64,000 nt of DNA from Christensenellaceae bacterium. GTDB taxonomy: Bacteria > Bacillota > Clostridia > Christensenellales > Christensenellaceae. The translations under genes and the position numbers were made by a program. Below, in pieces: positions 4,669 through 31,831 of this stretch. The notes under the pieces were generated by a model that searched no databases, was not told where the DNA came from, and saw nothing but the letters and a program-made list of their open reading frames with translations. The stretch lies in NCBI GenBank assembly GCA_022846035.1, contig AP025580.1:806001-870000 (forward strand), read 5' to 3'. Each line of letters begins with the position of its first letter. The first letter of the stretch is position 1.

Positions 4669-4670
4669 TT

Positions 4671-9765: not shown

Positions 9766-9782
9766 CTATATAAGAGAGTTAG

Positions 9783-9794: not shown

Positions 9795-9813
9795 TGAAAG
9801 GCGGTCAAGCATT

Positions 9814-10815: not shown

Positions 10816-10830
10816 ATTTTTTTAGGCATT

Positions 10831-10866
10831 TAGCAAACGTTTGCGTAAAGCTAGCAAACGTTTGCG
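10831..10866. promoter_or_regulatory. Tandem LacI-type operators before the GRE1 operon
   Basis: Two identical 15-mers, TAGCAAACGTTTGCG, start at 10831 and 10852. Each contains the perfect 12-bp palindrome GCAAACGTTTGC (10833-10844 and 10854-10865). Their centres are 21 bp apart, two helical turns, so two dimers would sit on one DNA face. The palindrome differs from a CcpA cre site at several conserved positions. Confidence 0.75.
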
Positions 10867-10913
10867 CGAAAAATAAGGAATATTTCAAAAAACGGTGGAG
10901 AGAGGTAATTATT

Positions 10914-11813: not shown

Positions 11814-11913
11814 CAGGCGTTATAAAATACGGTCGCATATTGTGCTGCTTATGAGGAAAGGGCAGCGCTTCAATTATCAACAAATCATCGGACAAAACGA
11901 AAGGAGAATGATT

Positions 11914-14373: not shown

Positions 14374-14409
14374 CATAAGCTGGCAGCCTGCGGGCTGCAG
14401 GGGAAACGG

Positions 14410-14447
14410 ACGGGAACGCTCCTTAAGAAAGGGCGCTCCCGTTTTTT
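14410..14447 (+). terminator. Terminator or attenuator after GRE1
   Basis: ACGGGAACGC pairs with GCGCTCCCGT with one mismatch, followed by six T. A second stem, GCAGCC/GGCTGC at 14383-14398, precedes it. The next gene starts 15 nt later with its own ribosome binding site, so this may lower rather than abolish TPR expression. Confidence 0.7.
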
Positions 14448-14462
14448 GAAAGGAGCATAGAT

Positions 14463-15522: not shown

Positions 15523-16425
15523 CTATTGATTTTGTTGCCTGTATTTAGAAGGGGAGAGTCCGACTTCTTTTTTAAAAACCTTAATAAAATAACTGCAGTC
15601 ATTATAACCGAAATGGGAAGCGATCTCATTAACGGACATATCGGTTGAAATAAGTAATTTTTTGGCGTATTCGATCTTTTTCTGATTCACATAATTCGAA
15701 AAGGTGGTATCGTTAAACTTACTGAACAATCGGCTCAGATAGTTGGCGCTGATGTTGCAGGCCGATGCCACGCAGCTCAGGGAAAGATCATCGAAAATAT
15801 TTTTCTCGATATATTCATAGACAGGAGCAAGAATTCCTTTATTCACATAAGGGGAGGAAGGCGGCGGTTCGTTCTGCATTTCTTCCGGAGGACAGGACAG
15901 TTTTTTGACCGCAAGCTCTAAAAACATATTGCACACGGAAAACAACATATTGGATATGGAAACGATTTTTTCAAGACTCATTTTCGGCAGCGCGAGATAT
16001 GCGTCGTAGTATTTTCCTGATTTCAATGGGGCGACGCTGTTGTCCGTATAAATTTGCTCTAACCCGCTTGTATTTTTATCATCATCCAGCATAACCTGTC
16101 CGGCCATAATGGCGCCGAGGTAGGCGTTGTTATATATAATAGGTATTGCAAAATCAACGATACCGGAGTGGCAGGTATAAATGTAAGGAGTACGGGTTCG
16201 TGCCGCTTCCAGCCCGCCGCGCGAATCGCAGCGTTCGCATAAGGTTTTATAATAAGGATGGTCGCGCACCATTGCGCAAAAGCGCGTGCACAAGCTATGC
16301 TGTGTAATGGGAGTTCCGGCATAATCCGTTGCGATGAGCGCTAGTCCCACAGATGCCGCAATATCGTCCTGCATTTTTTGAAAACTAGCAGTGTTGAAAA
16401 GATCCATAATGTTAAAATGAGGCAT
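15523..16425 (-). CDS. PocR-domain AraC-family regulator
   Basis: A 300-aa regulator. Residues about 5-165 look like a PocR sensory domain, with cysteine-rich segments FCAMVRDH and CERCDSRGGLEAA and the GIVDFAIPI and LGAIMAGQ strands. The C-terminal 100 residues are an AraC-type double helix-turn-helix (ISANYLSRLFSKF; MSVNEIASHFGYNDCSYF; VGLSPSKYR). PocR domains sense small diols in the propanediol regulator. It is divergent from the importer 2/GRE2 operon, whose promoter region carries a direct repeat of the kind AraC proteins bind. Activation of that operon by its substrate is the natural reading. Confidence 0.9.
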   Translation of the reverse strand: MPHFNIMDLFNTASFQKMQDDIAASVGLALIATDYAGTPITQHSLCTRFCAMVRDHPYYKTLCERCDSRGGLEAARTRTPYIYTCHSGIVDFAIPIIYNNAYLGAIMAGQVMLDDDKNTSGLEQIYTDNSVAPLKSGKYYDAYLALPKMSLEKIVSISNMLFSVCNMFLELAVKKLSCPPEEMQNEPPPSSPYVNKGILAPVYEYIEKNIFDDLSLSCVASACNISANYLSRLFSKFNDTTFSNYVNQKKIEYAKKLLISTDMSVNEIASHFGYNDCSYFIKVFKKEVGLSPSKYRQQNQ

Positions 16426-16889: not shown

Positions 16890-18383
16890 ATGAAAAAAAG
16901 ACTGAAAAAAGTATTAAGCACGTTTGTAGTAATGTGCTTAGCGGCAACGCTTGTATTTGCTGGCTGCGCGCCGGCACAACAGGTACCGGCCGCAAGCGAA
17001 CAACCGAGCGAGTCTCAGGCGGCAGAGCCTTCGGAGAGCGCAACGAATATTGAGTCTGCGACGCCTGAGGAAAAGTCGGCGGAGGCCGGAGACGATGTAG
17101 TCGCACAGCTTGTGGCAGAGGCATCGGGACTTTCGGACCTTGAGGCGCTGGCTTTCTTTGAAGGATTGGCAGATAAAGGATTGTCGGATGCGCAGATCAT
17201 TCAGTTCTTCATCGATCTTCCGCTCTCTGACGCCAACAAGCAAATTCACGACATGTATTTGGAAGAAGGACTCGATACGTATGCGCAGGCTTATCCGGCG
17301 GGCGAGTTTTATGACGGATTTGAATGGAAATCCGGCATGGGAACGGAAATTACCGGCGGGTTTACAAGCAACAGCCTTAAGCTGCCTTTCTCTGACGACT
17401 ATGTGCCGCTTCCGGAAGGGCCGATAGGGGATCCGAACAAGACATATACGATCGGCGTGGTTTCATCCGGCTTGAATGACGCATGGATCGGCAACTATCA
17501 GGACAGTATCATGTATGAAGCGGAACGCCATGACAACGTAGAAGTCGTCTACATGGATTACAACTTTGATATGAACACTTTCTCTTCCCAGTTCGATACG
17601 TTTATCGCGCAAGGCGTGGATGCCATTGTGACATGGCCGATGATCGAAGCGTCGTCCGGCCCGCCGGCACAAAGAGCGGAAGAAGCAGGGATACCGGTCA
17701 TTACCTCTGACCGTGTTACCTCCTATCCGGATGTCACATGCCGTATTACAGGAAATTTTCCGGCAAACGGCGCGCAAAACGGCATGTATCTCGTATGGAA
17801 ACTGGCGCAGGAAACACAGGGCAAGGAAGTAAAGGCAAATGTTGTGCTCTTAAGAAAGCCGGCGGGAAGCACGGCAGACACGATCCGTACAGGCTATTTC
17901 CTTAAGGTATGCAGTTACTTTCCGGGCATCAATATTCTACAATCGTACCACGACCAGGACAACAGGCAGGAATCCTATGTGAACGCGCAAAATGCTTTCC
18001 AGGCTTATGATAATATCGATGCTGTATTCAGCGGAGACTGTAATAAGGCCGCGGTCGCGTACGAGGCATGCAAGGAAGCGGACCGCCTCACAAGCAGGGA
18101 GGGCGGAAAAGAGGTCATTATTCTGTCTATCGACGACTCTAAGGAGGTTTACAGTATGATGGATGCGGGCGGTATCCAGATGAACGCGCCATACACCCCC
18201 CTGATCGGCGATATTTCACTGCGGGCCGCGCTCAAAATCCTGGCAGGTGAAGAGGTACCGCAGGATATTGCAACGCCGAATATCCCGATGGTAACGACGG
18301 ACGGAGCCGTGATTTTCGGACTGCAAACGCAAAAGCCGGATCAGTGGTACCAGTATACATTTGGTCCTCCTTACGAAGCATAA
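16890..18383 (+). CDS. Sugar ABC importer 2, substrate-binding lipoprotein with extra N-terminal region
   Basis: At 497 aa this is about 140 residues longer than a typical RbsB-type protein. A signal peptide ends in the lipobox VFAGC (Cys26), then comes an acidic Ser/Glu/Ala linker to about residue 70. A probably helical region (about 70-150, ASGLSDLEALAFFEGLADK and similar) precedes the type-1 periplasmic-binding fold, which starts near residue 186 (YTIGVVSSGLNDAW) and holds VDAIVTWPM and IPVITSDR. It is the extracellular receptor of importer 2. GGGGAA lies before the ATG. A perfect hairpin follows the gene. The extra region is unlike importers 1 and 3. Confidence 0.9.
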   Translation: MKKRLKKVLSTFVVMCLAATLVFAGCAPAQQVPAASEQPSESQAAEPSESATNIESATPEEKSAEAGDDVVAQLVAEASGLSDLEALAFFEGLADKGLSDAQIIQFFIDLPLSDANKQIHDMYLEEGLDTYAQAYPAGEFYDGFEWKSGMGTEITGGFTSNSLKLPFSDDYVPLPEGPIGDPNKTYTIGVVSSGLNDAWIGNYQDSIMYEAERHDNVEVVYMDYNFDMNTFSSQFDTFIAQGVDAIVTWPMIEASSGPPAQRAEEAGIPVITSDRVTSYPDVTCRITGNFPANGAQNGMYLVWKLAQETQGKEVKANVVLLRKPAGSTADTIRTGYFLKVCSYFPGINILQSYHDQDNRQESYVNAQNAFQAYDNIDAVFSGDCNKAAVAYEACKEADRLTSREGGKEVIILSIDDSKEVYSMMDAGGIQMNAPYTPLIGDISLRAALKILAGEEVPQDIATPNIPMVTTDGAVIFGLQTQKPDQWYQYTFGPPYEA

Positions 18384-18405
18384 AAGCTCTGAAATAGCAA
18401 AAGGA

Positions 18406-18438
18406 CTGCCGCTTCTTTTTAAAGGGAAGAAGCGGCAG
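18406..18438 (+). promoter_or_regulatory. Intercistronic hairpin after binding protein 2
   Basis: A perfect 12-bp stem, CTGCCGCTTCTT with AAGAAGCGGCAG, closes a 9-nt loop. No T-run follows. It likely protects the upstream binding-protein mRNA. Confidence 0.65.
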
Positions 18439-18481
18439 CCCGAAAGCATCATGGTTTATGATGGCGCGAGGTGAAGAAAAA

Positions 18482-19459
18482 ATGGAAAATAAGAATAACA
18501 GCATTTCACGGCTTTTATCCAGAGGGAATGGAATATTCGTATCGATCATCATATTGGGGATTTTCCTGATAGTCGCTGCGGTCGCGGTTCCCAATGTATT
18601 TCAGCCGACCAATCTGGCAAACGTCCTGAGGGTCAATTCTCCGGCGGGAATCATGGCGATCGGACTTGCGCTGGTTCTGCTGACAGGAGAAATCGATATT
18701 TCGGTCGGGGCGGTCATGTCACTGAGCGTCATGGTTATTTCCAAAATCGTAGATTACAGTGAGCCGCTTTCGATTCTGGCGATGCTGGGAGTGGGCGCGG
18801 CGTGCGGGTTTTTAAATGGTTGGATCGTTGCCAGGATACGCGTTCCGTCACTCATGGTCACCATTGGAACGATGTCGATCTATTCCGGTCTTGCGTGCAT
18901 CATCACCAACGCGCAGGCAAAATTTATGACAACGGCATACCCCATCTATACGACAATGTCCAAGGGAGACCTGGGCGGCATACCGGTTACGTTTATTTTG
19001 TGCGTCGTATTGGCGTTGCTGTTTTGGGTGATCACAACCAAAACAAAGTTTGGAAAGGACATCTATTATACGGGCGCAAACAAGCGCGCGGCATGGATGA
19101 GCGGTATCCGTATAGACCGCGTAAAAATCATCGTGTTTATGATCTGCGGCATATTAGCGGCATTAGCGGCGCCACTGATCACCACACAGATTGGCAGGAG
19201 CAACGCCGATGCGGGAACGGGACAGGAAGTTACCGCAATCGCAATCGCGGTGCTCGGCGGGGTTTCTTTAGACGGCGGCAGAGGCTCTATTCTGGGCGTG
19301 TTATGCGGTATGGTGACAATGGGTGTCCTGATGAATATGCTTGCGCTTTCCGGTCTTGGCACCTATGTCGAAATGGCGATCAAAGGTATATTGATCATTG
19401 CGGTAGTATTCATTTATGGGCTTGTTAATAGGAAAACAGGCGTACTCAAAGAGGCTTAA
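18482..19459 (+). CDS. Sugar ABC importer 2, permease A
   Basis: A 325-aa RbsC-type permease with about nine or ten membrane helices. The motif GEIDISVGAVMSL and the conserved loop GANKRAAWMSGI are clear. ATG 18482 is preferred, since GAGGTGAAG sits just upstream; ATG 18458 would include that ribosome binding site. Together with the next gene it supplies two different channel subunits, unlike importer 1. Confidence 0.92.
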   Translation: MENKNNSISRLLSRGNGIFVSIIILGIFLIVAAVAVPNVFQPTNLANVLRVNSPAGIMAIGLALVLLTGEIDISVGAVMSLSVMVISKIVDYSEPLSILAMLGVGAACGFLNGWIVARIRVPSLMVTIGTMSIYSGLACIITNAQAKFMTTAYPIYTTMSKGDLGGIPVTFILCVVLALLFWVITTKTKFGKDIYYTGANKRAAWMSGIRIDRVKIIVFMICGILAALAAPLITTQIGRSNADAGTGQEVTAIAIAVLGGVSLDGGRGSILGVLCGMVTMGVLMNMLALSGLGTYVEMAIKGILIIAVVFIYGLVNRKTGVLKEA

Positions 19460-19473
19460 GAGGGAGAAAGACG

Positions 19474-20520
19474 ATGGAAAAGAAATTGGAAAGAAATAAC
19501 AAAAAGGGATTTCTGTCACGGTATTTGCTCCTTCTGGTATTGATCATCGAAATTTTCGTGGGCTGGCTCATCAATCCGAATTTACTGACCCCGATGAATA
19601 TACAGGTGATCCTGTTTGCGTGCACGCTTAACGGGATTATATCGATCGGACAGTCGCTGGTGTTAATTTCAAAGGAGATCGACCTCTCGGTGGGTGCAAA
19701 CCTAGTATTTGCACCGATCCTGGCCGTCACAACGACGAGTATCCTTTATGAAACGGTAACGGGAACAGGCGTCTTGCAGGGCAAATCGGGGTTTATGACA
19801 GGCGGCTGGGAAATGGTTGTCATTCTCACGCTGGCATTTGCCGTGATCGTAGGACTGGGAAACGGGTTGATTGTTACCAAATGTAAAATTCCTGCGTTCA
19901 TCGCAACGATCGGTATGCAGTTCTTTTTGAAAGGCGTCTCGTACATTATTTCGGGCGGTATTCCGATTTTTATCAAAGATGTAGAAGCATCCAAATTTAT
20001 TGGCAATGCGAGCATTGGTAACGTCGTTCCGGTCAGCGTGCTGGTATTCGTAGTAATCGGGCTGGTGATACTGTTCTTATGTAACCGGACGAAATTTGGT
20101 ATGCGGCTGTATGCGACGGGCGGCGGTCTTAAAGCGGCCAAGCTTTCGGGTATCAATACGGATAAGTGGAAAATCGTTGCTTATGCGGTGTGTGGATTTT
20201 TGGTTGGGATCGCGGCCATCATGTCCATGTCGCGTCTTCAGGGGATCGAGATTACACAGGCTACCAAGGGAAACTACGATATGAACAGTATTGCCATATC
20301 GATCATCGGCGGTATCGCGCTTTCCGGCGGAAAAGGCAGTATCGCGGGTACCATGCAGGCGACGGCTATCATTGCGATCCTGCTCAATATCCTGAACATG
20401 CAAGGGCTGATGGCATATTACCAACTGTTTATCACAGGCTGTATCATTGTAGTGATTGCAATTATTCACCAGAAGAATGAGAGCAGAAGACTGAAGGCAC
20501 TGAAGATCATTGAAGTATGA
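19474..20520 (+). CDS. Sugar ABC importer 2, permease B
   Basis: A second RbsC-type permease, 348 aa, with SKEIDLSVGANLV in the first third and YATGGGLKAAKLSGI before the coupling loop. It is preceded by GAGGGAGAAAG and starts 14 nt after permease A. It probably forms a heterodimeric channel with permease A. The N-terminus is basic and cytoplasmic. Confidence 0.92.
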   Translation: MEKKLERNNKKGFLSRYLLLLVLIIEIFVGWLINPNLLTPMNIQVILFACTLNGIISIGQSLVLISKEIDLSVGANLVFAPILAVTTTSILYETVTGTGVLQGKSGFMTGGWEMVVILTLAFAVIVGLGNGLIVTKCKIPAFIATIGMQFFLKGVSYIISGGIPIFIKDVEASKFIGNASIGNVVPVSVLVFVVIGLVILFLCNRTKFGMRLYATGGGLKAAKLSGINTDKWKIVAYAVCGFLVGIAAIMSMSRLQGIEITQATKGNYDMNSIAISIIGGIALSGGKGSIAGTMQATAIIAILLNILNMQGLMAYYQLFITGCIIVVIAIIHQKNESRRLKALKIIEV

Positions 20521-20561
20521 TCAGCACCGTTAAAATTCGAGAATTTCAGTAGGTGGGTAAG

Positions 20562-22073
20562 ATGAGTAAAAAATTACTTGAAATGAAAAATATAGAAAAA
20601 AGCTTTTTGGGCGTGCCTGTCCTGAAGAAGGTCGATTTTTCGCTGGACAGGGGACAGGTCATTTCGATCATCGGTACGAACGGTGCGGGCAAGTCTACGC
20701 TTTCCAATATTATCGCCGGCGTCTATGGAAAGGACGGCGGTACGGTGGAGATCGACGGGGAACAGGTAGATATGCGCAGTCCTAATGACGCGGAAAAATA
20801 CAGTATCGGTATGGTACATCAGGAGCCGACTTTGTGCGAAAATATGCGGGTATATGAAAATATTTTTTTGAACCGCGAGATTAATAAAAAATCAGGCCTG
20901 CTCGACAGGGAAAAAATGAAAGAAGAAAGCAGGCGCGTCTTAAGCTATCTGGGCGTTGATATTGATGTCGAAGAAATCGTGCAAAATCTTTCGCTGGTCG
21001 GAAAAGGGGTCGTGTCCATCGCGAAAGCGATGCTGATGAACCCTAAGATACTGATTCTTGACGAGGTGACGGCGCCGCTTAACCAAAAAGAGGTTGAGCA
21101 TCTGTTCGAAGTGGTGTGCAGCCTGCGGGAAAAAGGTTTGGGGATCATCTATATCAGCCACAAAATCAAGGAGATCGTGGCGATTTCAGACGAGGTCGTC
21201 GTCTTGAAAGACGGCGAAAACGTAGGGACGTTTGTGGCGAAAGAAGAAGCGCTCAGTGAAAAGAAGATCATCCATCTGATGCTGGGCGAGACGGAAGGCT
21301 GGCAGGGCGAATACAGTGAAAAACAGCTTGAACAGCACCAGGAAGAAACGCTTCTTAAGCTGCAGGATCTGAGCAAGGATGAATTATATGAAAACATTTC
21401 TATCGATTTGCACAAGGGTGAAATCATTGGCCTTGCAGGGTTAAAGGGATCAGGGATCACAGAGCTGATGTTTTCCGTATTCGGCGTGCTGCAGCCGGAC
21501 AGCGGCGAAATCATCAAGGACGGCGTGGCGATCAAGCCCGCAACCCCGAAAGAAGCGATCAGAAGCGGAATCGGTATGATTACCAACGACAGGCAAAAGG
21601 AAGGCGCGGCCATCATGCTTTCGGTCGAGGACAACATTACCGTGGCCTCGCTTGACAAGATGAAGCAGAGGGGAACGATCTCAGGTAAAAAGTTGCTTTG
21701 TGCAACGCGGGAATATATCGATAAGTTGCAAATCAAGACGACAGGTCCGAAACAGGCGGTACAATTTTTGTCCGGCGGCAATCAGCAAAAGGTTGTCGTT
21801 GCAAAGTGGCTGCTGAAAAATGCACAGGTCATCCTGATTGACGAACCGACAAGGGGCGTTGACGTAAAGGCCAAAAATGAGATATACAATCTGCTGATTA
21901 CAGAGAAAATGCAGGGCAAGGGGATTATCGTATTTTCACCGGAAACGCGCGAGCTGCTTAATATTTGCGACCGGATATTGGTACTGACCGCAGGAAAAAT
22001 TACGTCGGAAATCAACAGAGCGGACGAAAATTTCAATGAAAAGGGCGTAATGGAAGCTATGCATTCTTTTTAA
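20562..22073 (+). CDS. Sugar ABC importer 2, ATP-binding protein
   Basis: A fused double ATPase of 503 aa. The first domain has P-loop GTNGAGKST and Walker B LILDEVTAPL. In the second the P-loop is degenerate (GLKGSGITEL), as is common in this family, while signature LSGGNQQK and Walker B LIDEPTRGVD are intact. ATG 20562 fits TAGGTGG upstream; GTG 20553 is an in-frame alternative inside the ribosome binding site. It drives permeases A and B encoded just before it. GRE2 begins 46 nt downstream, which ties import to radical chemistry. Confidence 0.92.
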   Translation: MSKKLLEMKNIEKSFLGVPVLKKVDFSLDRGQVISIIGTNGAGKSTLSNIIAGVYGKDGGTVEIDGEQVDMRSPNDAEKYSIGMVHQEPTLCENMRVYENIFLNREINKKSGLLDREKMKEESRRVLSYLGVDIDVEEIVQNLSLVGKGVVSIAKAMLMNPKILILDEVTAPLNQKEVEHLFEVVCSLREKGLGIIYISHKIKEIVAISDEVVVLKDGENVGTFVAKEEALSEKKIIHLMLGETEGWQGEYSEKQLEQHQEETLLKLQDLSKDELYENISIDLHKGEIIGLAGLKGSGITELMFSVFGVLQPDSGEIIKDGVAIKPATPKEAIRSGIGMITNDRQKEGAAIMLSVEDNITVASLDKMKQRGTISGKKLLCATREYIDKLQIKTTGPKQAVQFLSGGNQQKVVVAKWLLKNAQVILIDEPTRGVDVKAKNEIYNLLITEKMQGKGIIVFSPETRELLNICDRILVLTAGKITSEINRADENFNEKGVMEAMHSF

Positions 22074-22119
22074 ACAGAAAAGAGACCCTCAAATAATCAA
22101 AAGGTAGGAGTGAAGTAAA

Positions 22120-24633
22120 ATGTCTGATAAAAAAAACACGCTGGATATGCTGAAAAAACCAAAAAATCTTTCACCGAGGATCAAATGGCTGCGGGATTTC
22201 TATTATAAGGGTCGGGATCGTGAATGGAACAATGAATATCTTTCGTTTTCTACAGGCGAGCCGTGGGATCTTTTGTACGACATGACGATCAATACCATCA
22301 CCTATGAAGAGGTGAGGGGCTACAGGGTAACGGAGGATTCGGCGAAGCAGATAGGCCTTTCGCATGTGGTTCGCGTGCCGGACGGATTTTATGCACAGAC
22401 GATCGCGGAGCGCAAAGCATGGTTTAACAAAGAGGTGATGCTGCATCATGTTCCCATCGAAATATTTCCAGGAGACCTGATCGCGGGAGGACGCTTTAAC
22501 CTGCGCGTGTCGCACTGCCTGACAAAAGAGGAAACGCAGGAACGCGAAGAAATGTTGTGTGGGCAAAACGGATTCTCGCCACGCTGCGACGAGTATAACA
22601 ACAGGGGCTTTGGCAATCTGGGGCCCGCGGCGGGACACCTGATTCCCGGGCATCAGAAAATTATTGACTTTGGGTTGCGCAGCGAGTATGAGTACTACGA
22701 AAAATTACTGTCTGAACTTTCCCCGCAGGAACGCGAGGGGGCGCATGGCGGGCAGCTGCGGGCAATGATGACGTCCTGCCTGATGGGTAAGGAACTGGCG
22801 GAAAAGTATGCCGATCGGTGCGAAGAGCTGGCGCCGCAGGCAAATACACAGGAACGTAAAAAAGAACTGCTGGAAATGGCGAAGATGCTGCGCCGCGTGC
22901 CGTGGGAACCGGCGACCAACTTCTGGGAAGCCATGCTGAGCCTTTGGATCCCGCATATGCTGATCATGGCGGATGAAAATTATCCGGGCGCGGGGACATC
23001 GTTTGGAAATATCGACCGCTATCTTTATCCCTATTGGAAAAAATCATTGGAGCAGGGCATGGATCGTGAATTTGGCAAAGAGATCCTAAAGTGCTTTTTT
23101 ATTCACTGCAATACGGCGTATGATGCGGCGATCCAGGTAGGGTGTAATCAGGGGATCACAGCGGGATATGGACAATTGTTCAACTTTTCAGGCGCGGGGA
23201 AAGGGGGCGTAGACGTATCCAACGACCTGACAATGGCGCTTTTTGAAGTGATCGACGATATGACGCCCATGCTGGAACCGAAGCCGAATGTACGTTTGCA
23301 CAGGAATACGCCGGACGTGGTGCTGGATAAGGTCGTGGATATGGTCAGCCACAGCCAGGGTGCCCCTTTCCTTATCAACTTTGACGAGCGTGCGATGGCG
23401 GGCATGATGAGGGAAGCAAAGGAAGGGCATGTGGAGAAGCTGATCAATGAGGATAATGTATTCGAATATGCTTCTGTCGGTTGTATGGAAAATACGATGG
23501 TCGGCAACGACCGCTCGGAAACGGTAAACTGCAATGTGGTTCTGGTCAAAGCCGTGGAACTGGCGCTGGGAGACGGCAAGGACCTCGTCGATCATTATGA
23601 TTTTGCAGGAAAGCCGTATCCGATCAGGCAAGACGGCCCCAAGACGGGGGATCCGCGCGATTTTAAAGACTTCGAGCAATTCTACAGGGCGTTTGAAGAG
23701 CAGATTAAATTTGTAATCAAAAAGAGCGTCGATTTATACAATTTAGGAGACCTGATGCGTGCGAGATACAGCCCGACGCCATTCCTCTCCGTATTGGTTA
23801 AGGGATGTGCGGAAAAGGGAAAAGACATCGTTGAGGGAGGGGCGGAATTGCGGTTTTGCACGATCGAGGGCGTTGCTTTTGCTACGACCGTAGACTCGCT
23901 CTTAGCAGTGAAATATTTGGTATACGATGAAAAAATCTGTACGATGGACGAACTGCTGACCGCGCTTAAGGCCAATTGGGAAGGATATGAGGTATTGCAG
24001 GCGATTGCCAAAAATAAAGCGCCTAAATATGGCAGGGACGACGATGAGGCGGACGCGCTCGCCAAGCGTATTATGGACCTGTGGACGGCGGAATGCTGGA
24101 AATATCGAACGGTGGGCAGCGACGAACAGTTTCGGCCCGGCATGTTGAGTTGGAACTATTGGGTGACCTATGCGGGAATTACCTTTGCCACGCCGGACGG
24201 CAGGAAACGCGGGCAATTTTTATCGAACGCGATCTGTCCATCGAACGGGGCGGACATCAACGGTCCTACCGCGAATGCGAACTCTGTAGGAAAGGCGCTG
24301 GGCGGAAAGGACTGGGAAGCGGGAGACTTTGAACATTATAAAAACAGTCTGCCCAACGGCGCGAGCCATACGATTACTTTCAACCCGACTGTGTTGCGCG
24401 ACCCGGAGCACAAAAAGAAATTTAAAACGTTTTTGAAAGGATATATTGAGAATGGAGGCACGGCGCTGCAGATCAATATACTGGATGTGGATATGTTAAA
24501 GGATGCGCAGGAACATCCGGAAGATTACAGTACGCTTCTCGTACGGGTGACGGGATATAACGCATATTTTACATCCATCGGCAAGGAATTGCAGAATGAG
24601 ATCATCGCACGGGAAAGCCACCAGAAGTTTTAG
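22120..24633 (+). CDS. Glycyl radical enzyme 2, substrate unknown
   Basis: An 837-aa glycyl radical enzyme. The radical site is Gly812 in RVTGYNAYF. The thiyl cysteine is Cys455 in ASVGCMENTMVGNDRS, with Glu457 as the probable acid/base, so the pair is GCME rather than GCVE. GHLIPGHQKIIDFG keeps the histidine region seen in dehydratase-like members. It is clearly diverged from GRE1 and from pyruvate formate-lyase, which has two adjacent cysteines. AGGAGTG precedes the ATG. The following genes encode the activase, a split-barrel protein, a glycerol-dehydrogenase-like enzyme and DhaKL, so a product that is, or becomes, glycerol or a dihydroxyacetone analogue is plausible. That last step is inference. 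Confidence 0.92.
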   Translation: MSDKKNTLDMLKKPKNLSPRIKWLRDFYYKGRDREWNNEYLSFSTGEPWDLLYDMTINTITYEEVRGYRVTEDSAKQIGLSHVVRVPDGFYAQTIAERKAWFNKEVMLHHVPIEIFPGDLIAGGRFNLRVSHCLTKEETQEREEMLCGQNGFSPRCDEYNNRGFGNLGPAAGHLIPGHQKIIDFGLRSEYEYYEKLLSELSPQEREGAHGGQLRAMMTSCLMGKELAEKYADRCEELAPQANTQERKKELLEMAKMLRRVPWEPATNFWEAMLSLWIPHMLIMADENYPGAGTSFGNIDRYLYPYWKKSLEQGMDREFGKEILKCFFIHCNTAYDAAIQVGCNQGITAGYGQLFNFSGAGKGGVDVSNDLTMALFEVIDDMTPMLEPKPNVRLHRNTPDVVLDKVVDMVSHSQGAPFLINFDERAMAGMMREAKEGHVEKLINEDNVFEYASVGCMENTMVGNDRSETVNCNVVLVKAVELALGDGKDLVDHYDFAGKPYPIRQDGPKTGDPRDFKDFEQFYRAFEEQIKFVIKKSVDLYNLGDLMRARYSPTPFLSVLVKGCAEKGKDIVEGGAELRFCTIEGVAFATTVDSLLAVKYLVYDEKICTMDELLTALKANWEGYEVLQAIAKNKAPKYGRDDDEADALAKRIMDLWTAECWKYRTVGSDEQFRPGMLSWNYWVTYAGITFATPDGRKRGQFLSNAICPSNGADINGPTANANSVGKALGGKDWEAGDFEHYKNSLPNGASHTITFNPTVLRDPEHKKKFKTFLKGYIENGGTALQINILDVDMLKDAQEHPEDYSTLLVRVTGYNAYFTSIGKELQNEIIARESHQKF

Positions 24634-24649
24634 GAAAGAGAGCAAGGAC

Positions 24650-25630
24650 ATGGATGATAACAAAGCATTGATACTGAATATCCAAAGATTGTCTACGGAA
24701 GACGGGCCGGGCCTGAGGACAACTGTTTTTTTCAAGGGATGCAATCTGCGGTGCGTATGGTGCCACAATCCGGAAAGCTTGTCCTCTGAAAAGCAAATCG
24801 AATGGTACGCGGCGAGATGTATGGGATGCGGTTTATGTGTTACGGCATGTCCGACTCATAGCATACGGCGCGAAGAGGCGGGCTTTGTGATCAACAGGGA
24901 AACGTGTATCGCTTGCGAAAGCTGCGTGAAGAGATGTCCCACCCTCGCGATGGAAGTGCAGGGAACACAGTGGAATCTTGAAGAGCTCGTTTATGAAGTG
25001 CTTAAGGATAAAAACTATTTTGGGGTGGATGGAGGTATTACCGCGTCGGGAGGAGAATGCCTGCTTCAGGGAAAATTTATTACGGCGTTTTTCAAACGGC
25101 TGCGGGCGAAAGGGATACATACAGCCCTTGATACCGCGGGGTTGGTACGGCAGGATGTATTTGCAAAGGTCCTGCCGTACACAAGCCTGGTGCTTTTGGA
25201 CCTGAAAATTTTCGAACGGCAAAGGCACCAGAAATATACGAGTGTCGATAACGAAGTGATTCTAAAAAATGCCCGCTATATCGCGGAATACTGCGCCTTA
25301 CATCCGGATACCAAGTTGTGGATCAGAACGCCGGTGATTCCCCATATCACCGATACAGAGCAAAATATCCTCTATATTGGCAAATTCATTACAGAATATC
25401 TGCAGCCGGTCGTGGAACGTTGGGAGTTGCTTGCTTTTAACAATCTGTGCAAGGATAAGTATGAGCGGCTGGATATGGATTGGCAGCTAAATGATATTGC
25501 GCTCATCAAACAGGAAAAAATGGAAGAGCTGTATGAAGTTGCTTTAAAAAGCGGCGTAGATCCGGAAAAAGTGATATGGACGGGAGCGATGAAAACGGAA
25601 ACGGAAGCCCCGCGGGAAGCGGAGATATAA
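24650..25630 (+). CDS. Glycyl radical enzyme activase 2 (radical SAM)
   Basis: A 326-aa activase for GRE2. Radical SAM cysteines are Cys31-x3-Cys35-x2-Cys38 following GPGLRTTVFFKG. A ferredoxin-like insert carries Cys57/60/63/67 and Cys86/89/92/96 for two more [4Fe-4S] clusters. ITASGGE is the SAM-binding segment. ATG 24650 is chosen because AAGAGAGCAAGG lies just upstream and the longer in-frame start would overlap GRE2. It starts 16 nt after the GRE2 stop. Confidence 0.92.
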   Translation: MDDNKALILNIQRLSTEDGPGLRTTVFFKGCNLRCVWCHNPESLSSEKQIEWYAARCMGCGLCVTACPTHSIRREEAGFVINRETCIACESCVKRCPTLAMEVQGTQWNLEELVYEVLKDKNYFGVDGGITASGGECLLQGKFITAFFKRLRAKGIHTALDTAGLVRQDVFAKVLPYTSLVLLDLKIFERQRHQKYTSVDNEVILKNARYIAEYCALHPDTKLWIRTPVIPHITDTEQNILYIGKFITEYLQPVVERWELLAFNNLCKDKYERLDMDWQLNDIALIKQEKMEELYEVALKSGVDPEKVIWTGAMKTETEAPREAEI

Positions 25631-25655
25631 TCAGGGTAAGATAGGAGAAAAGAGT

Positions 25656-26513
25656 ATGAGATCATTACAACATGTAAATCAGTCGTATAAACATGACGAG
25701 GAACAGATTGACTTTTATGCAACGGTCAACGAGGATAAAACGCCGCATATCACAATGTTGACGTCGCTTCACATTTATGATGAAAACACGTTGATTTGGG
25801 GCGAATATTCAGCGGGGCGTTCCAAGCATAACCAACAAGAGCGTCGTAAAATCGGCTTTTTATCGGTGATTAACGGAAAAGAAACGGTCAGTGGAAAGGC
25901 GGACTTCATAGGGAGTGAAAAAAGCGGGGAAAAGCTCGACGCACTCAATCAAATACCGGAATTCCGATATAACAACGTCAATGGATATTCTCCCGCGCAT
26001 ATTCTTCGTAAAAAGAGCATGTATGAAAGCGGGCTTGACAGGGAAGCGTACGCGCGGGCGAGGGAAGAGAGCGAAAAGGCGATAAAGAAAGCGGGCGAGG
26101 GAAGCAATCCGGAGGCCATCAGTGTATTGACGAGAAAATATATGGATGCGGAAAACGGCTTTAAAGTGCTTGCCTATGTGGGCGGTGACGGCTATCCCAC
26201 GGTACTGCCTGTTCCGCAGGCATTGCTCACACCGTCCAATCGCGCGGTTTTTTCGATGGAATATGACGCGGCGCTGCAAGAGATCGCCGAGGGCGCTGCC
26301 GTCGCGATCTATGCGATTGAATATCCGTCCATGTGCGCGGTGCTGGTAAGCGGAACGCTGGAGAAAAAGGATATAGACGGAAGAACATATGGGATCGTCG
26401 ATATTACGCGGGTATATAACCCAATGCTATCGGTGGCGGGATATATTTATCCGCCGCAGGAAATAAAGACGGTAACGGAGTTTTGCGACACAGTTTATGA
26501 GTATAATGTTTGA
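25656..26513 (+). CDS. Pyridoxamine-phosphate-oxidase-like split-barrel protein
   Basis: A 285-aa soluble protein that seems to hold two related FMN-binding split-barrel units. The first (about 15-110) contains DFYATVNEDKTPHITML and TLIWGEYSAG. The second (about 165-280) contains FKVLAYVGGDGYPTVLPV and AVFSMEYDA. This half-to-half similarity is visible by eye. The family binds FMN, F420 or heme and often reduces small molecules or acts as a flavin carrier. AGGAGAAAAG precedes the ATG. Its place between the activase and the dehydrogenase genes suggests a redox step in the same pathway. The family call is fairly good; the function is unknown. Confidence 0.65.
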   Translation: MRSLQHVNQSYKHDEEQIDFYATVNEDKTPHITMLTSLHIYDENTLIWGEYSAGRSKHNQQERRKIGFLSVINGKETVSGKADFIGSEKSGEKLDALNQIPEFRYNNVNGYSPAHILRKKSMYESGLDREAYARAREESEKAIKKAGEGSNPEAISVLTRKYMDAENGFKVLAYVGGDGYPTVLPVPQALLTPSNRAVFSMEYDAALQEIAEGAAVAIYAIEYPSMCAVLVSGTLEKKDIDGRTYGIVDITRVYNPMLSVAGYIYPPQEIKTVTEFCDTVYEYNV

Positions 26514-26566
26514 CCGTCCGCACAGATGGAAAATTGTGCGGTAATACAATGAAAAGGAGTAAGAAT

Positions 26567-27652
26567 ATGACAAGGACAATGACTTCCCCATCAAAATTTA
26601 TATTGGGAAACGGTGAACTGAAAAATTTAGGAAAATACATTTCCCAGTTGGGAAGCAAGGCGATGATTGTTGCGCATCCGGATGACTATGCGAGGGTGGA
26701 GGACATTCTGAAGCCGGCGCTTGTGGAAGTACCTTTTACGCATGTCGCGTTTGGCGGGGAATCGTGCGATAAAGAGATTAACCGCATTGTGAAGCTGGCG
26801 GAAGAGGAAAAGGCCGATGTAGTAATCGGGCTGGGCGGCGGTAAGGCGCTGGATACGGCAAAGGCGACAGGAACGCTGACGAAAAAGCCGGTCATCATCG
26901 TACCGACGATCGCGTCGACGGACGCGCCGACGAGCGCGCTGGCAATCATTTATACGGAAAACGGAGAGTTCGAACGGTATATGCACCTGCCGAAGAATCC
27001 GGACCTGGTGCTGGTAGATTCCGGAGTGATCGCCAAGGCGCCTACGCGCTTCCTGATCTCAGGAATGGGAGACGCGCTGGCAACGGTGTTTGAGGCGCGG
27101 GCATGCATCAAGGCAAGCAAGCCGAACATGTCGGGCGGCATGAGCACAAAAGCGGCTCTGGCGATCGCTGAAACATGCTATGCGACGCTGCTGGAGGATG
27201 CGCACAAGGCGAAAGCGGCGTGTGACGCGGGCGTAGTAACGATCGCGTTGGAGAATATTATAGAAACGAACATCCTGCTTTCAGGATTGGGCTTTGAGAG
27301 CAGCGGACTCGCGGCGGCGCACGCGGTACACGACGGACTGACGGTTCTGGAAGAAACGCATCATTACTTCCATGGTGAGAAAGTAGCGTTCGGAACGCTG
27401 GTACAGTTGGTTCTGGAAAACGCGGAGGAAGAAACGATCATCGAGGTTCTTGATTTCTGCCGTTCGCTGGGACTGCCGGTATGCCTCGCAGACCTTGGGG
27501 TAGAAGAGCTGGATGACGAGAGACTGATGCGGGTAGCGACGCACGCGTGTTCGGATCTGGAGACAATGGACAATATGCCGTTTGAGGTACGGCCGTCGGA
27601 TGTGGCGGCAGCGATCCGCGCGGCCGATAAGATTGGCGGTGATTACGTATGA
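26567..27652 (+). CDS. gldA: Glycerol dehydrogenase-like iron/zinc alcohol dehydrogenase
   Basis: A 361-aa member of the GldA family, which oxidises glycerol to dihydroxyacetone with NAD. The NAD-binding GLGGGKALDTAK, the metal aspartate in GMGDALATVFEA, and the metal histidines in AHAVHDGL and HYFHGEKVAFG are all present. ATG 26567 is chosen for AAAAGGAG upstream; a start at 26510 would overlap the previous gene and lacks the family start. A small hairpin (26518-26541) lies in the gap. dhaK begins within its stop codon, so both are translationally coupled. Glycerol is the family substrate, but related polyols are possible. Confidence 0.88.
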   Translation: MTRTMTSPSKFILGNGELKNLGKYISQLGSKAMIVAHPDDYARVEDILKPALVEVPFTHVAFGGESCDKEINRIVKLAEEEKADVVIGLGGGKALDTAKATGTLTKKPVIIVPTIASTDAPTSALAIIYTENGEFERYMHLPKNPDLVLVDSGVIAKAPTRFLISGMGDALATVFEARACIKASKPNMSGGMSTKAALAIAETCYATLLEDAHKAKAACDAGVVTIALENIIETNILLSGLGFESSGLAAAHAVHDGLTVLEETHHYFHGEKVAFGTLVQLVLENAEEETIIEVLDFCRSLGLPVCLADLGVEELDDERLMRVATHACSDLETMDNMPFEVRPSDVAAAIRAADKIGGDYV

Positions 27653-28635
27653 AAAAAATCATCAACAATATTGAGGATATTGTAGGTGAAATGTGCGAAG
27701 GAATTGTTTGCGGCAGGCCGGAATTAGCATTTGACCCTAAGTACAGGATTGTAAAACGCTCGCAAATCGACGCGTCGAAGGTCAGCCTGATCTCCGGAGG
27801 CGGCAGCGGCCATGAACCGGCGCACGCGGGCTTTGTGGGCAAGGGAATGCTCAGCGCGGCAGTATGCGGGGATGTATTTGCTTCGCCGTCGACGATCCAG
27901 GTATACAACGCCATCCTGCAGACGGAAAGCGACGCGGGAACACTGCTGATCATCAAAAATTATTCGGGCGATTGTATGAATTTTGAAGCGGCGAAAGAAA
28001 TGGCCGAGGATGACGACATTAAGGTGGAGTGCGTCTATGTAAATGATGATATAGCGGTGCAGGACAGCCTGTATACAACAGGACGCAGGGGCGTCGCGGG
28101 CACGGTTTTTGTACACAAAATCGCCGGCGCGGCGGCAGAAGCGGGCAAGGACTTAAAAGAAGTAAAACGGATCGCGGAAAAAACGATCAAAAATGTAAAG
28201 TCCATTGGGTTTGCGCTGACATCGTGTACGGTTCCGGCCAAGGGAAGTCCGACTTTCAACATAGGAGAAAATGAGATCGAATTTGGCGTGGGCATACATG
28301 GAGAACCAGGGATCGAGCGCTGCAGGATCGAAACATCCGCACGGCTTGCTGAAAGGATGATGCAAAAGCTGCGCGATGAGCTTAAGCTAAAGGTGGGCGA
28401 CAGGTGCGCGGTCATGGTCAATGGACTGGGCGGAACGCCGTTGATGGAACTGTATATCTTAAACCATGATATACAGGCGATATTGGCGGCAGAGGAGATC
28501 ATACCGGCCAAGATATTGGTAGGAAATTATATGACATCGCTGGATATGGCGGGAGCGTCGGTGACTCTCCTGAAACTTGACGATGAGTTGGAAAGCCTGC
28601 TGACAGAACCAACAGACATCGCATTATTCTGCTAA
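27649..28635 (+). CDS. dhaK: Dihydroxyacetone kinase, substrate-binding subunit DhaK
   Basis: A 328-aa protein of normal DhaK length. SLISGGGSGHEPAHAGFVG binds the ketose and GVGIHGEPG carries the histidine that forms the covalent hemiaminal with dihydroxyacetone. It would present the ketose to DhaL for phosphorylation. It overlaps gldA by 4 nt and is followed by dhaL 14 nt later. No phosphotransferase subunit (dhaM) is nearby, so either ATP is the donor or DhaM is encoded elsewhere. Related kinases phosphorylate erythrulose and similar ketoses. Confidence 0.93.
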   Translation: MKKIINNIEDIVGEMCEGIVCGRPELAFDPKYRIVKRSQIDASKVSLISGGGSGHEPAHAGFVGKGMLSAAVCGDVFASPSTIQVYNAILQTESDAGTLLIIKNYSGDCMNFEAAKEMAEDDDIKVECVYVNDDIAVQDSLYTTGRRGVAGTVFVHKIAGAAAEAGKDLKEVKRIAEKTIKNVKSIGFALTSCTVPAKGSPTFNIGENEIEFGVGIHGEPGIERCRIETSARLAERMMQKLRDELKLKVGDRCAVMVNGLGGTPLMELYILNHDIQAILAAEEIIPAKILVGNYMTSLDMAGASVTLLKLDDELESLLTEPTDIALFC

Positions 28636-28649
28636 AGAAGGAGGCAAAT

Positions 28650-29270
28650 ATGAGTGTGACATTGGATGAAGTCAAAAAAACGATCGCGCGTTTGTGCGAT
28701 ATTATCATCGATAATGAGGTTTATTTTTGCGAACTGGATTCTGTCGCGGGCGACGGGGATTTTGGTATGTCGATAGCCAAAGGTTTCAAAGAAGTAAAGA
28801 GACAGTTGGACGAGATCAATGATGTGGATATTGCGGCGTTTATCAAGGGATGTGCTTTGATTATTACAGAGCATTGCGGCGGCGCGTCCGGCCCGATCTG
28901 GGGTTCAGGGTTCCGCGCGGCTGCAAAAAGCGTACAGGGAAAAGAGACAATGACATTGGATGATATTGCTGGCCTGTTTGAAGCGGCTATTGTGGGAATC
29001 CAAAAGCGCGGCGGCGCAGCGCAGGGGGAAAAGACGCTGCTGGATGCTTTGATTCCGGCAACGGAAGCGTTGCGCGACGCTGCGCAAAAGGATCTGCAGA
29101 TCAAAGAAGCGTTTGTAAATGCGGCAAAAAGTGCTGAAAAGGGAGCGGAGGCGACAAAGAATATGATCGCTTCCAAAGGACGGGCTTCTTATGTCGGCGA
29201 TAGAAGCCTGCACTATCCGGATGCAGGAGCAATGGCAATCAGCGTGATCTTAAGGGAGTTTGTCAGTTAA
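28650..29270 (+). CDS. dhaL: Dihydroxyacetone kinase, nucleotide subunit DhaL (variant)
   Basis: A 206-aa DhaL-type subunit. LDSVAGDGDFG corresponds to the magnesium/ADP motif of E. coli DhaL (IGDADHG), so the histidine after the last aspartate is phenylalanine here. HCGGASGPIWG and GRASYVGDRSLHYPDAGA match the GGASGP and GRASYLGERS regions with changes in the second. AGGAGG lies just before the ATG. It is the last gene of the 12 kb operon and is followed by a strong terminator. The differences may mark an ATP-dependent or non-dihydroxyacetone subgroup. Confidence 0.9.
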   Translation: MSVTLDEVKKTIARLCDIIIDNEVYFCELDSVAGDGDFGMSIAKGFKEVKRQLDEINDVDIAAFIKGCALIITEHCGGASGPIWGSGFRAAAKSVQGKETMTLDDIAGLFEAAIVGIQKRGGAAQGEKTLLDALIPATEALRDAAQKDLQIKEAFVNAAKSAEKGAEATKNMIASKGRASYVGDRSLHYPDAGAMAISVILREFVS

Positions 29271-29294: not shown

Positions 29295-29328
29295 AAAGAG
29301 CCGCCTTTTACGGCGGCTCTTTTTTTAT
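29295..29328. terminator. Terminator shared by dhaL and the convergent pucR-type gene
   Basis: AAAGAGCCGCC pairs perfectly with GGCGGCTCTTT around TTTTAC, followed by a long T-run on the plus strand and A-rich sequence on the other side. Confidence 0.9.
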
Positions 29329-30590
29329 TCCTTTGTTTCGTACATACGGTATAACTGGATCGATGCGGAAAGGGCGCGGGCGACCTTGGGCTGTTCGAAA
29401 TCCGCCTGCAGGATCTGGAAAATACGTTCCAGGCGGTATCGAAGAGTGCCCCGATCGACAAACAGGGATTTTGCGGCGGCCGAATAAGAGTTCCCGTTCT
29501 TCAGATATTGCTCAAGCGTTTTCAGGTAAGAGGTATTGTTCTCACGGTCGAACAGGACCAGCTTGTGGATTTCGGATAAAAGCAGCACAGGAACGCCAAA
29601 GCGTTCCGCCGCGCTTGTCAAAAGCAGCTCCGTATAAAAATCGATATAATGATAAAGATATCTTTGCGGCGCCTGCCGTATACCGATTTTCAAAACCGCC
29701 AACGCCTGCTGCTTAAAAAAGCGGCGCTGGTCGATACTTTCAAAAGGATCCGAGACGGCGGCAAAGAGCTGCTGCTGGTAACAGAAGCTTTCGATCTCTC
29801 CCAGTTGCGCCTGCGTATAGCCGTAAAAAAATACCAGCAGCCGGTTTCTGTGGACCAATGAAAAGCTATTGGGAAAATGGTATTCCAGCTCGTAAAGGAC
29901 GTAAGTATAATCCGGTACTTTCTCTTTGCAGCTGCGGAATTGCAGGGCCGCGATCACAAAGGGCGGCCGCACGGGATCGCCTTTTGTTTTTTGTTTCAGG
30001 AAAGCCTCGTATTTCTGGAAGCTGTTACCGGACAGCGTTTTTACGGTGTCATTGTCGTAAAGAAGCAATTCCCGCGCGATCATGACGTCCGTTACGTCTT
30101 TTTTTAAGGGAGGCCTCGCGGACGTCTCGTGAAGCTGCGTTTCGCATAAAAGGGCGATCAGCGAGGCGGCTTCTTTTGCAACCGCCAGCAATTGCGGATC
30201 GTCAAACTTAAGGACCAGCACCCACGCCGGCTGGTTGTCTTTGCGGACAGGATAAAAGACCGTACAATAAGGATCCTGCGGCGCGGCGGGCGTAATATGC
30301 GGCGCGGAATCTTCAAAGATACGTTTCACAATATCAAAAAAAGCGGCTTCGCTGTTATCGACATAACAAATGAAATCTTCTTTGCCAAGATAAGAAGAGG
30401 GAAAATAATTCGGCAGCGCTTTCGCGGCAGAGTGAAGCATCAGCCGGCCGTCAAGATCGAGCACAAAAATATTGAGCAGGATATGATCGCGGATATGCTG
30501 CAAAATGATAGGAAGCGGATGCCCGTCCACAAGGTCCTGAAGGATCACGCGATTCAATTCGTAAGAAGCCGGCGGATTCAACAGCCTCAC
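29325..30590 (-). CDS. PucR/CdaR-type helix-turn-helix regulator (second of pair)
   Basis: A 421-aa regulator whose C-terminus is a PucR-type helix-turn-helix: LEQYLKNGNSYSAAAKSLF followed by VDRGTLRYRLERI. The N-terminal 300 residues hold a GAF-like sensory region without a recognisable ligand motif. It starts at GTG 30590, overlapping the stop of the upstream paralogue by 4 nt, so the two are cotranslated. Members of the family respond to purines, sugar diacids or other small metabolites, usually as activators. The target is probably the divergent SDR operon. Confidence 0.88.
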   Translation of the reverse strand: MRLLNPPASYELNRVILQDLVDGHPLPIILQHIRDHILLNIFVLDLDGRLMLHSAAKALPNYFPSSYLGKEDFICYVDNSEAAFFDIVKRIFEDSAPHITPAAPQDPYCTVFYPVRKDNQPAWVLVLKFDDPQLLAVAKEAASLIALLCETQLHETSARPPLKKDVTDVMIARELLLYDNDTVKTLSGNSFQKYEAFLKQKTKGDPVRPPFVIAALQFRSCKEKVPDYTYVLYELEYHFPNSFSLVHRNRLLVFFYGYTQAQLGEIESFCYQQQLFAAVSDPFESIDQRRFFKQQALAVLKIGIRQAPQRYLYHYIDFYTELLLTSAAERFGVPVLLLSEIHKLVLFDRENNTSYLKTLEQYLKNGNSYSAAAKSLFVDRGTLRYRLERIFQILQADFEQPKVARALSASIQLYRMYETKE

Positions 30591-31831
30591 CCCCCGTTTT
30601 GATTTTGGTCCGGAACATGGTAGCGTTGTAAAACGCGCATCATATTAAGGCCGGTATATAGCTGCCGCGCGACCTCAAAATCCCTCACGTCAAGCCCCAG
30701 GAGATCGGTTATTTTATCCAGCCGCAGGCGTATCGTATTGGGATGTACGGCAAGGGCGGGCGCGGTTTCCGAGAGGTTGCGCTGATGGTCGAAATAACAG
30801 GATAAAGTCGCCAGGAAATCGCTTTGCTCATGCTCGTCGAAAGCCGCGAGCTTGCGCAGCGCATAGGGAAGGGAGGCGCTCCCGCCCAGCCTTTCGATCG
30901 TGTTGTAACAGATAATATCCATATATGAGTCGCGGAAAGAAAAACATTTTTGGTCCGGATTCAAGCTGCTGCCCACCGATCGCGCGTGGATCGCCTGCAC
31001 CCTGTGGTCCGGCAATGTCCGAATATCCGAAAAATAATCGGACAGGCTGTAGTGGAAAGCCTGCTGCAGGGAAAGCCGGAACAGCAGGTCCTCGATTTCC
31101 TGCAGGGCCGCCTGGCCCGCGACGGACGAAAACAACAGGTAGAGATACTGACTTTCCGAGGAGCAACCGATTACATGGGGATTGGTTTTGCAGATATGCC
31201 CGCGGGTATATTGCAGCTCCACCTCGTTCGCGTTCGCGAAGTAGAGAATCGCCAGCACATACGGCGGCGAAAATTGAGTCTCGTAAGCGTGGATCACTTG
31301 CTGGTCGGGAACGTCGGAAAGCAAAAGCTGCTGCGCGTATTGCTGGGGCGAAGTAATATCCCGTTGTTCCTCAGCCGCCGCATAGAGCAGGCAGCCAAGC
31401 GTTCCGGCCATGATCCCGTTGATTTCCATGACCTCGTCGACAAAAGGAGAATCGCCAAGGTCGATCCCGATATAACCGTATAAAAAATGATTATGGAAAA
31501 TCGGACAACAGGTTTGCGGATGGTTTTCGCAGGTGCCCCAGGTAATGAGCGTCGGTTTCCCGTTGCGGTAGATGACGTCCTGATAGTCAAGCTGGGTATC
31601 GATTATTTTTTGCTGCGGCGCGCTGCCGCGTTCCGCGATTTCCTCCCAATCCTGAAAATAGAACGGACGGGAAAACGCATAGGTAATCAGGGTGAGCGTT
31701 TCGTCGAATACGATGATCGGGTAACATAACTCGTCGTACACATTGCGCACAAAAACACTGACATCCTGCTTTTTCAGGATCGCTTCCATGCAAAGACGCT
31801 GGATTTTAACGATGTCAGGACGGCTTTTCAT
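30587..31831 (-). CDS. PucR/CdaR-type helix-turn-helix regulator (first of pair)
   Basis: A 414-aa paralogue of the next gene, weakly similar by eye. The C-terminal domain has LSCYFDHQRNLSETAPALA and VHPNTIRLRLDKITDLLG, the PucR helix-turn-helix. The N-terminal part contains PIIVFDETLTLITYA and a regulatory domain with a likely ligand pocket but no catalytic motif. It is divergent from the SDR/flavoprotein operon, separated by 371 nt that contain repeated GTGAAA boxes. Two overlapping copies could act as a heterodimer or sense two ligands. Confidence 0.88.
   Translation of the reverse strand: MKSRPDIVKIQRLCMEAILKKQDVSVFVRNVYDELCYPIIVFDETLTLITYAFSRPFYFQDWEEIAERGSAPQQKIIDTQLDYQDVIYRNGKPTLITWGTCENHPQTCCPIFHNHFLYGYIGIDLGDSPFVDEVMEINGIMAGTLGCLLYAAAEEQRDITSPQQYAQQLLLSDVPDQQVIHAYETQFSPPYVLAILYFANANEVELQYTRGHICKTNPHVIGCSSESQYLYLLFSSVAGQAALQEIEDLLFRLSLQQAFHYSLSDYFSDIRTLPDHRVQAIHARSVGSSLNPDQKCFSFRDSYMDIICYNTIERLGGSASLPYALRKLAAFDEHEQSDFLATLSCYFDHQRNLSETAPALAVHPNTIRLRLDKITDLLGLDVRDFEVARQLYTGLNMMRVLQRYHVPDQNQNGG

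Follow-up and report, generated by a model that had tools for sequence, protein, structure and literature searches.

Glycyl radical enzymes (GREs) open substrates beyond the reach of other anaerobic chemistry, and according to an excerpt of PMC11574389, many abundant GREs of gut genomes have no known function. An excerpt of PMC7077986 describes the CXE motif of the Cys loop as conserved across GRE eliminases, and reports that His160, Asp278, Asp339, and Glu436 were shown to be essential in HypD. As well, the limonenylsuccinate synthase operon encodes LssP, a putative pyridoxamine-phosphate-oxidase protein, to which its authors assign no clear function in the excerpted text of PMC12583861. Here, we describe a GRE, designated GRE2, which is encoded together with an importer, an activase, a split-barrel protein, a GldA-like dehydrogenase, and the dihydroxyacetone kinase proteins DhaK and DhaL (DhaKL) in a 64,000-nucleotide stretch (hereafter the window; positions 806,001 to 870,000 of contig AP025580.1) from a Christensenellaceae bacterium. 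By its motif GRE2 resembles the eliminases, and in its family an activase and a tandem split-barrel protein form a conserved core with the GRE, to which the importer, GldA, and DhaKL are additions. The core consists of the following genes:

22120-24633, + strand: GRE2, glycyl radical enzyme (PF02901, 376 bits; PF01228, 78.5 bits)
24650-25630, + strand: radical S-adenosylmethionine (SAM) activase (TIGR02494, 288 bits, cut-off 174; cluster motif CNLRCVWC)
25656-26513, + strand: tandem split-barrel (PNPOx-like) protein (PF01243, 28.4 bits, borderline to the cut-off of 28.1)

GRE2 possesses a glycyl radical domain with the RVxGY signature, in which G812 of RVTGY is the radical glycine, as well as the residues C455-M456-E457 and H173. 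A preliminary description of this DNA had reported GCME at Cys455/Glu457 as a motif that could not be assigned; the positions are correct, whereas GCME is, by sequence, the CXE motif of GRE eliminases. Its reading as an odd motif was rejected, since it fits the CXE definition given in the excerpt of PMC7077986. H173 aligns with the essential His160 of HypD, no acid is present in GRE2 at the position of Asp278 (G290 with phmmer, A291 with MAFFT) or Asp339 (G351 or Y350, depending on the alignment), and the positions of Tyr450 and Thr645 are occupied by N472 and W678. The positions that we take to be H281 and S282 of glycerol dehydratase are A291 and G292 in GRE2. Since the Cys, Glu, and His are kept and the pocket residues are changed, the catalytic core of GRE2 appears to be eliminase-like and its pocket its own.

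In the NCBIfam comparison, GRE2 falls well under every glycyl-radical cut-off. It scores 377 against TIGR01774, the PFL2/glycerol dehydratase subfamily (cut-off 678), 356 against HypD NF043068 (cut-off 1100; the positive control L020 scores 1463), 327 and 326 against the sulfopropanediol dehydratases HpfG/HpsG (NF048009, NF048011; cut-off 1000), and 313 against CutC TIGR04394 (cut-off 1050), and for the arylacetate decarboxylases (NF033718, NF033715) it reaches 225 with indoleacetate (cut-off 1100) and 164 with 4-hydroxyphenylacetate (cut-off 1150). The best PDB sequence matches are CutC (291 bits), glycerol dehydratase, and HypD, within a range of 277-291 bits, and Foldseek placed the GRE2 model nearest to glycerol dehydratase 1r8w (E 2e-28, TMq 0.62), followed by propanediol dehydratase, HypD, and CutC. 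No close match to a known decarboxylase or dehydratase was thus found; such a match had been named beforehand as one that would speak against the proposed scheme. The genome carries nine PF02901 genes; none of the eight besides GRE2 passes an equivalog and six pass TIGR01774, so that GRE2 can be regarded as divergent, and L008 (307 bits) is more divergent within the same genome. Failure at the NCBIfam equivalogs was rejected as proof of rarity, because it is shared by all eight other GREs.

The GRE2 family was searched with GRE2 as the query and then with a 13-sequence profile, and its members were divided into a main and a sister type by score range, and at the examined loci also by tree. It was sampled in Spirochaetota, Chloroflexota, and Firmicutes, including ten loci of 57-62% identity in assemblies named as Spirochaetes, Anaerolineales, and Clostridiales Family XIII. 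Among the sampled Spirochaetota (the phylum of G407), 30 of 296 genomes carry the family, 28 with the main type (one in two pieces) and two with the sister type, and the class of G409 has it in 19 of 199 genomes (two of the main type and 17 with scores in the sister range). In the phylum of the window genome it is present in four of 398 genomes (three main, including its own, and one sister), and in its class in three genomes beyond its own. Only its own genome carries GRE2 among the 18 genomes of its taxonomic family, suggesting that GRE2 reached this genome by transfer.

Neighbourhoods were compared at 48 loci, comprising 40 of the main type (the window included) and eight of the sister type, with flanks of a median of ~8.7 kb on each side (several <2 kb); G1005 and G1008 (two pieces) of the 30 Spirochaetota genomes and 12 of the 17 sister-range matches were left out. 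The tree excluded pieces of <600 amino acids and one broken copy (L012 / L037:2022-4523), which is interrupted by an in-frame TAA and is accompanied by activase and split-barrel genes that look whole.

All 48 loci have an activase gene downstream of the GRE, and 47 also have a split-barrel homologue there; at L039, the sole locus without one, the contig ends 1.1 kb past the GRE. The three genes were called directly adjacent at 35/48 loci, and at the other 13 there is an intervening gene, fragment, or miscall, or the contig ends. Two genes were missed by the gene caller and recovered with tblastn, namely the L034 activase and the L111 split-barrel gene. No split-barrel homologue was found near 19 other GRE loci (eight in the same genome and 11 in the class; flanks ≤1.5 kb). 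The split-barrel protein, which the preliminary description had passed over in this role, is the core partner of GRE2. A GntR-FCD regulator was called at 29/48 loci (27/40 main, 2/8 sister; ten confirmed by Pfam), and neighbours seen at single loci (sulfatase, BNR protein, molybdopterin oxidoreductase, nitroreductase, peptidase, MFS) showed no common theme. At the related loci L108 (10.1-13.6 kb region) and L111, a protein of 176-178 amino acids is encoded between GRE2 and the activase. In the sister family, L121 has a ferredoxin-nitroreductase protein (4579-5502) between the GRE and the activase, and a DUF1786 protein, listed in Pfam as 'putative PFL-activating enzyme', follows its split-barrel gene (L121:7387-8451).

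The model of the split-barrel protein shows two barrels (predicted local distance difference test (pLDDT) 79.2). Foldseek matched one barrel at a time to flavin mononucleotide (FMN)-, heme-, and F420-type split barrels, with 41 PDB matches at E≤0.001, of which the FMN-binding 3in6 was the best (E 1.9e-5), and HupZ, presumably a heme binder, was also matched (2.3e-5). Its homologue at L025 has no Pfam match. As modelled, the protein is a probable flavin-type binder.

Ten genes, from the binding protein to DhaL, lie on the + strand between 16890 and 29270, in the order Rbs-type importer (importer 2), GRE2, activase, split-barrel protein, GldA, DhaK, and DhaL. Besides the core genes given above, the region comprises:

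15523-16425, - strand: PocR-AraC transcriptional regulator, divergent from the operon (PF10114, 149 bits, cut-off 23.9; HTH_18)
16890-18383, + strand: importer 2 substrate-binding protein, 497 amino acids, with a long N-terminal extension (PF13407, 115 bits, residues 188-455)
18384-18457, + strand: strong hairpin without T run, between the binding protein and the first permease (-30.1 kcal/mol, z -4.27)
18458-19459, + strand: importer 2 permease (PF02653, 149 bits)
19474-20520, + strand: importer 2 second permease (PF02653, 88 bits)
20553-22073, + strand: importer 2 double ATPase (two PF00005 stretches; 421 bits to the xylose-type ATPase, below its cut-off of 699)
26567-27652, + strand: GldA-like dehydrogenase (NF006941 subfamily, 518 bits, cut-off 336)
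27649-28635, + strand: DhaK (TIGR02363, 458 bits, cut-off 406)
28650-29270, + strand: DhaL (TIGR02365, 179 bits, cut-off 138)
29295-29322, + strand: intrinsic terminator after DhaL (11-pair stem and T run; fold z -6.05)

The coordinates, the codirectional layout with small gaps or overlaps, and the identities of GldA, DhaK, and DhaL agree with the preliminary description, as DhaK and DhaL pass curated cut-offs and GldA that of its subfamily; the starts of two genes were corrected. GldA most likely begins at ATG 26567 rather than TTG 26510, because its homologues begin there and AAAGGAG lies upstream, and the activase probably begins at 24650 rather than 24596, the reading frames being open from 26510 and 24596, respectively. 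With these starts, the gaps are 53 nucleotides between the split-barrel gene and GldA and 16 nucleotides between GRE2 and the activase, and the sole true overlap is that of GldA and DhaK (4 nucleotides). A break between the importer and GRE2 would also have spoken against the earlier scheme, and the terminator scan found no terminator-like site in this 46-nucleotide gap, where the fold is within chance (z 0.44). A weak promoter-like site (22069-22097, 9/12) lies in the same gap 5' of GRE2, and promoter-like sites across the region are at chance level (22 found, 20.0 expected). As judged from the sequence, the operon is a single unit from 16890 to 29270, separated from the PocR-AraC gene by a divergent gap of 464 nucleotides. 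The hairpin at 18384-18457, which has no entry in the terminator scan results, lies inside the importer and possibly raises expression of the binding protein.

The solved chains nearest to the binding protein are of YtfQ- and ribose-binding type (≤64 bits in the PDB search), which points to a general sugar type only; among 381 class genomes, only its own copy was found at E≤1e-50, a result that is not decisive with up to four candidates scored per genome. The nearest solved structure to GldA is glycerol dehydrogenase 6csj (402 bits). DhaK carries H55, D108, and H217 at what we take to be the active-site positions. PF03610 (EIIA-Man), which would indicate the DhaM of a phosphotransferase-dependent DhaKLM system, was not found in the window genome (0/1; control positive in 5/14), and because of this, ATP is probably the phosphoryl donor of DhaKL.

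From this gene content, we tentatively propose, as a reading with somewhat less than an even chance, that the operon serves the anaerobic catabolism of an imported hydroxylated compound, which would pass through GRE2 elimination, GldA, and DhaKL to dihydroxyacetone phosphate (DHAP). The importer would take up a small hydroxylated compound holding, or convertible to, a three-carbon polyol unit, with the PocR-AraC regulator as the likely sensor. The activase would radicalise GRE2, which may then act as a CXE eliminase, in that the C455 thiyl radical would abstract a hydrogen from the carbinol carbon, E457 would accept its proton, and the adjacent C-O or other heteroatom bond would be cleaved to give a carbonyl product and a leaving group. 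Family-wide, the split-barrel protein may join the GRE in the elimination step or act on the product. Subsequently, GldA would interconvert the resulting alcohol and ketone (glycerol/dihydroxyacetone, or hydroxyacetone type), and DhaKL would phosphorylate dihydroxyacetone to DHAP. For instance, a 1-O-substituted glycerol could be converted to hydroxyacetone with its substituent freed as the alcohol, and from diglycerol, glycerol would also be released, so that GldA would handle both types.

The nearest relative of GRE2 (65% identity) is found at L094, in the Clostridiales Family XIII assembly that also carries L029, and the two are sister sequences with a support of 1.0. The gene order at L094 is PocR-AraC, GldA, LivG, LivF, Peripla_BP_6 binding protein, LivH, LivM, flavin adenine dinucleotide (FAD) oxidoreductase, GRE2, activase, and split barrel, in which the Liv names were given by position and by similarity to another operon at 391 kb of the window genome. 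Its PocR-AraC (L126:3135-4262) is 33% identical to that of the window. E467/N470 occurs in these two GREs only (2/48), and the remaining sequences have G/D (44), H/D (one), or A/D (one). By tblastn, GldA and PocR are near GRE2 at these two loci only (2/48), and DhaKL at the window only (1/48), so the idea that GldA and DhaKL belong to the conserved GRE2 module was rejected. The coupling of GRE2 to GldA and DhaKL, claimed earlier, therefore stands as an association, as the GRE2 of L094 also lies with GldA, an importer, and PocR-AraC; it does not stand for a conserved unit, since the importer, GldA, and DhaKL lie outside the module and DhaKL is absent from L094. Next to the L094 operon are genes for one DUF4037 and one TPR protein (L094:1111-4880).

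Of the GldA copies compared, the one closest to that of the window lies beside a DhaK at 391 kb of the same genome (90.6% identity), and the two DhaK are 75.5% identical. In the L094 genome, a GldA next to a fused DhaKL shares 76.9% identity with the GldA of the L094 operon, which in turn shares 52.8% with that of the window. Because each GldA is nearest, among those compared, to a copy of its own genome, separate recruitment is suggested, in that two lineages seem each to have placed their own GldA copy beside a GRE2 of this branch, which is the best evidence for a pathway shared by GldA and GRE2. Gene for gene, the L094 operon corresponds to that at 391 kb (PocR 39%, LivG 51%, LivH 50%, binding protein 35%), and its GRE2, activase, and split-barrel genes occupy the place of DhaKL in the latter. 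The 391-kb run itself (L141, G000:C1 389-401 kb) has no GRE and comprises PocR-AraC, GldA, DhaK, DhaL, PF12831 FAD oxidoreductases, and a Liv-type importer. G001 has the same arrangement and G005 has PocR-GldA-DhaK; both are same-genus genomes without GRE2.

Several points weigh against the route to DHAP. The GRE2 model is weak (mean pLDDT 67.5, residues 452-469 <50) and thus too weak for active-site geometry. The CXE motif is present in arylacetate decarboxylases too, and regulators of the FCD type, to which those of the basic module belong, often sense carboxylates, which gives no pointer to polyols. Within the flanks examined, GldA and PocR are both absent from the remaining 46 loci, so the basic reaction of the family needs neither, and DhaKL is missing even at L094. 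The linked cases form one clade, so that no more than two events underlie the statistics, and the GldA comparison covers copies beside DhaK or GRE2 rather than the genome as a whole. Finally, GldA could run as a reductase.

In the last case, GRE2 would make an aldehyde or ketone, as the diol dehydratases and CutC do, GldA would reduce it and regenerate NAD+, and DhaKL would either remain from the cassette duplication or serve glycerol taken up in parallel. This is consistent with L094, which keeps GldA without DhaKL, and with the next-best NCBIfam models of GldA, the equivalog NF047954 (L-1,2-propanediol/glycerol dehydrogenase, 420, cut-off 700) and glycolaldehyde reductase (414, cut-off 550), both of which it scores below. 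However, GldA, DhaK, and DhaL adjoin, with the first two overlapping, and DhaK retains its presumed active-site residues, so we consider the reductive role unlikely, if a serious alternative. GldA, DhaK, and DhaL might also be passengers that share no pathway with GRE2, in which case a glycerol cassette would have been duplicated and placed downstream of a GRE2 operon unrelated to it, to be transcribed by read-through. The close likeness to the other cassette of the genome and the end of the conserved module at the split-barrel gene would fit this, but a GldA of a different lineage, again with PocR-AraC and an importer, accompanies the sister GRE2 at L094, which makes mere passengers improbable. 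Least probable by our estimate, GRE2 would be a decarboxylase or catalyze some other type of GRE reaction, and its product would be handled by the FMN-like partner. Eliminases and decarboxylases are not told apart by CXE alone, and the essential Asp278 and Asp339 of HypD are lacking in GRE2, but of the full-length CXE-type models those of decarboxylases give the lowest scores, and GldA and DhaKL suit polyol chemistry.

Beyond the proposed route to DHAP, it was speculated that the GRE and the tandem split-barrel protein form a two-component radical-flavin catalyst across the family in at least three phyla, an idea we hold to be rather doubtful. The GRE would cleave a bond between carbon and a heteroatom, and its flavin-like partner would take the product or feed electrons to the activase. 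One branch, with a changed Cys-loop strand (G467E, D470N), would have gained an importer, a sensor, and GldA, and with them a new anaerobic route that leads from a glycerol- or polyol-bearing compound to DHAP. In the literature searched, no description was found of the GRE2 family or of a split-barrel protein as the partner of a CXE-type GRE, although one phrase query, entered without a prime mark, may miss papers.

The window also carries a second GRE operon (3133-15380), with an Rbs-type importer, ribulose-phosphate epimerase, FGGY kinase, DUF4125 protein, LacI regulator, activase, GRE1 (11692-14373), which passes no NCBIfam equivalog, and a TPR protein (14463-15380). The occurrence of DUF4037, DUF4125, and TPR genes in the vicinity of GREs may be a common theme. 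Moreover, two adjacent PucR-type regulators (29325-31831) are convergent with the GRE2 operon.

The locus offers the GRE2 family, with its near-universal split-barrel partner, a testable setting, with the binding protein of the importer, a regulator, and downstream enzymes with known assays. Compared with known systems, GRE2 resembles the B12-independent glycerol/1,2-propanediol dehydratases (1r8w, 5i2g) in fold, CXE Cys loop, and radical-SAM activase (279 bits to 1r8w), and differs from them in falling below TIGR01774 and having an extra partner protein. CutC, the choline trimethylamine-lyase, shares CXE and is the best PDB sequence match, but its Tyr506 position is N472 in GRE2 (via Tyr450 of HypD). 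HypD shares CXE and the His160 equivalent H173, whereas its Asp278, Asp339, Tyr450, and Thr645 are replaced in GRE2 (G/A, G/Y, N472, and W678, respectively). The GldA-DhaKL glycerol route has the same families, also as the cassette at 391 kb; here it stands behind the importer, GRE2, activase, and split-barrel genes and has no DhaM. The limonenylsuccinate synthase operon likewise combines a GRE with a PNPOx-type protein, but its GRE belongs to the X-succinate synthase class with small subunits, and LssP is likened to the split-barrel protein by its description only, as excerpted from PMC12583861.

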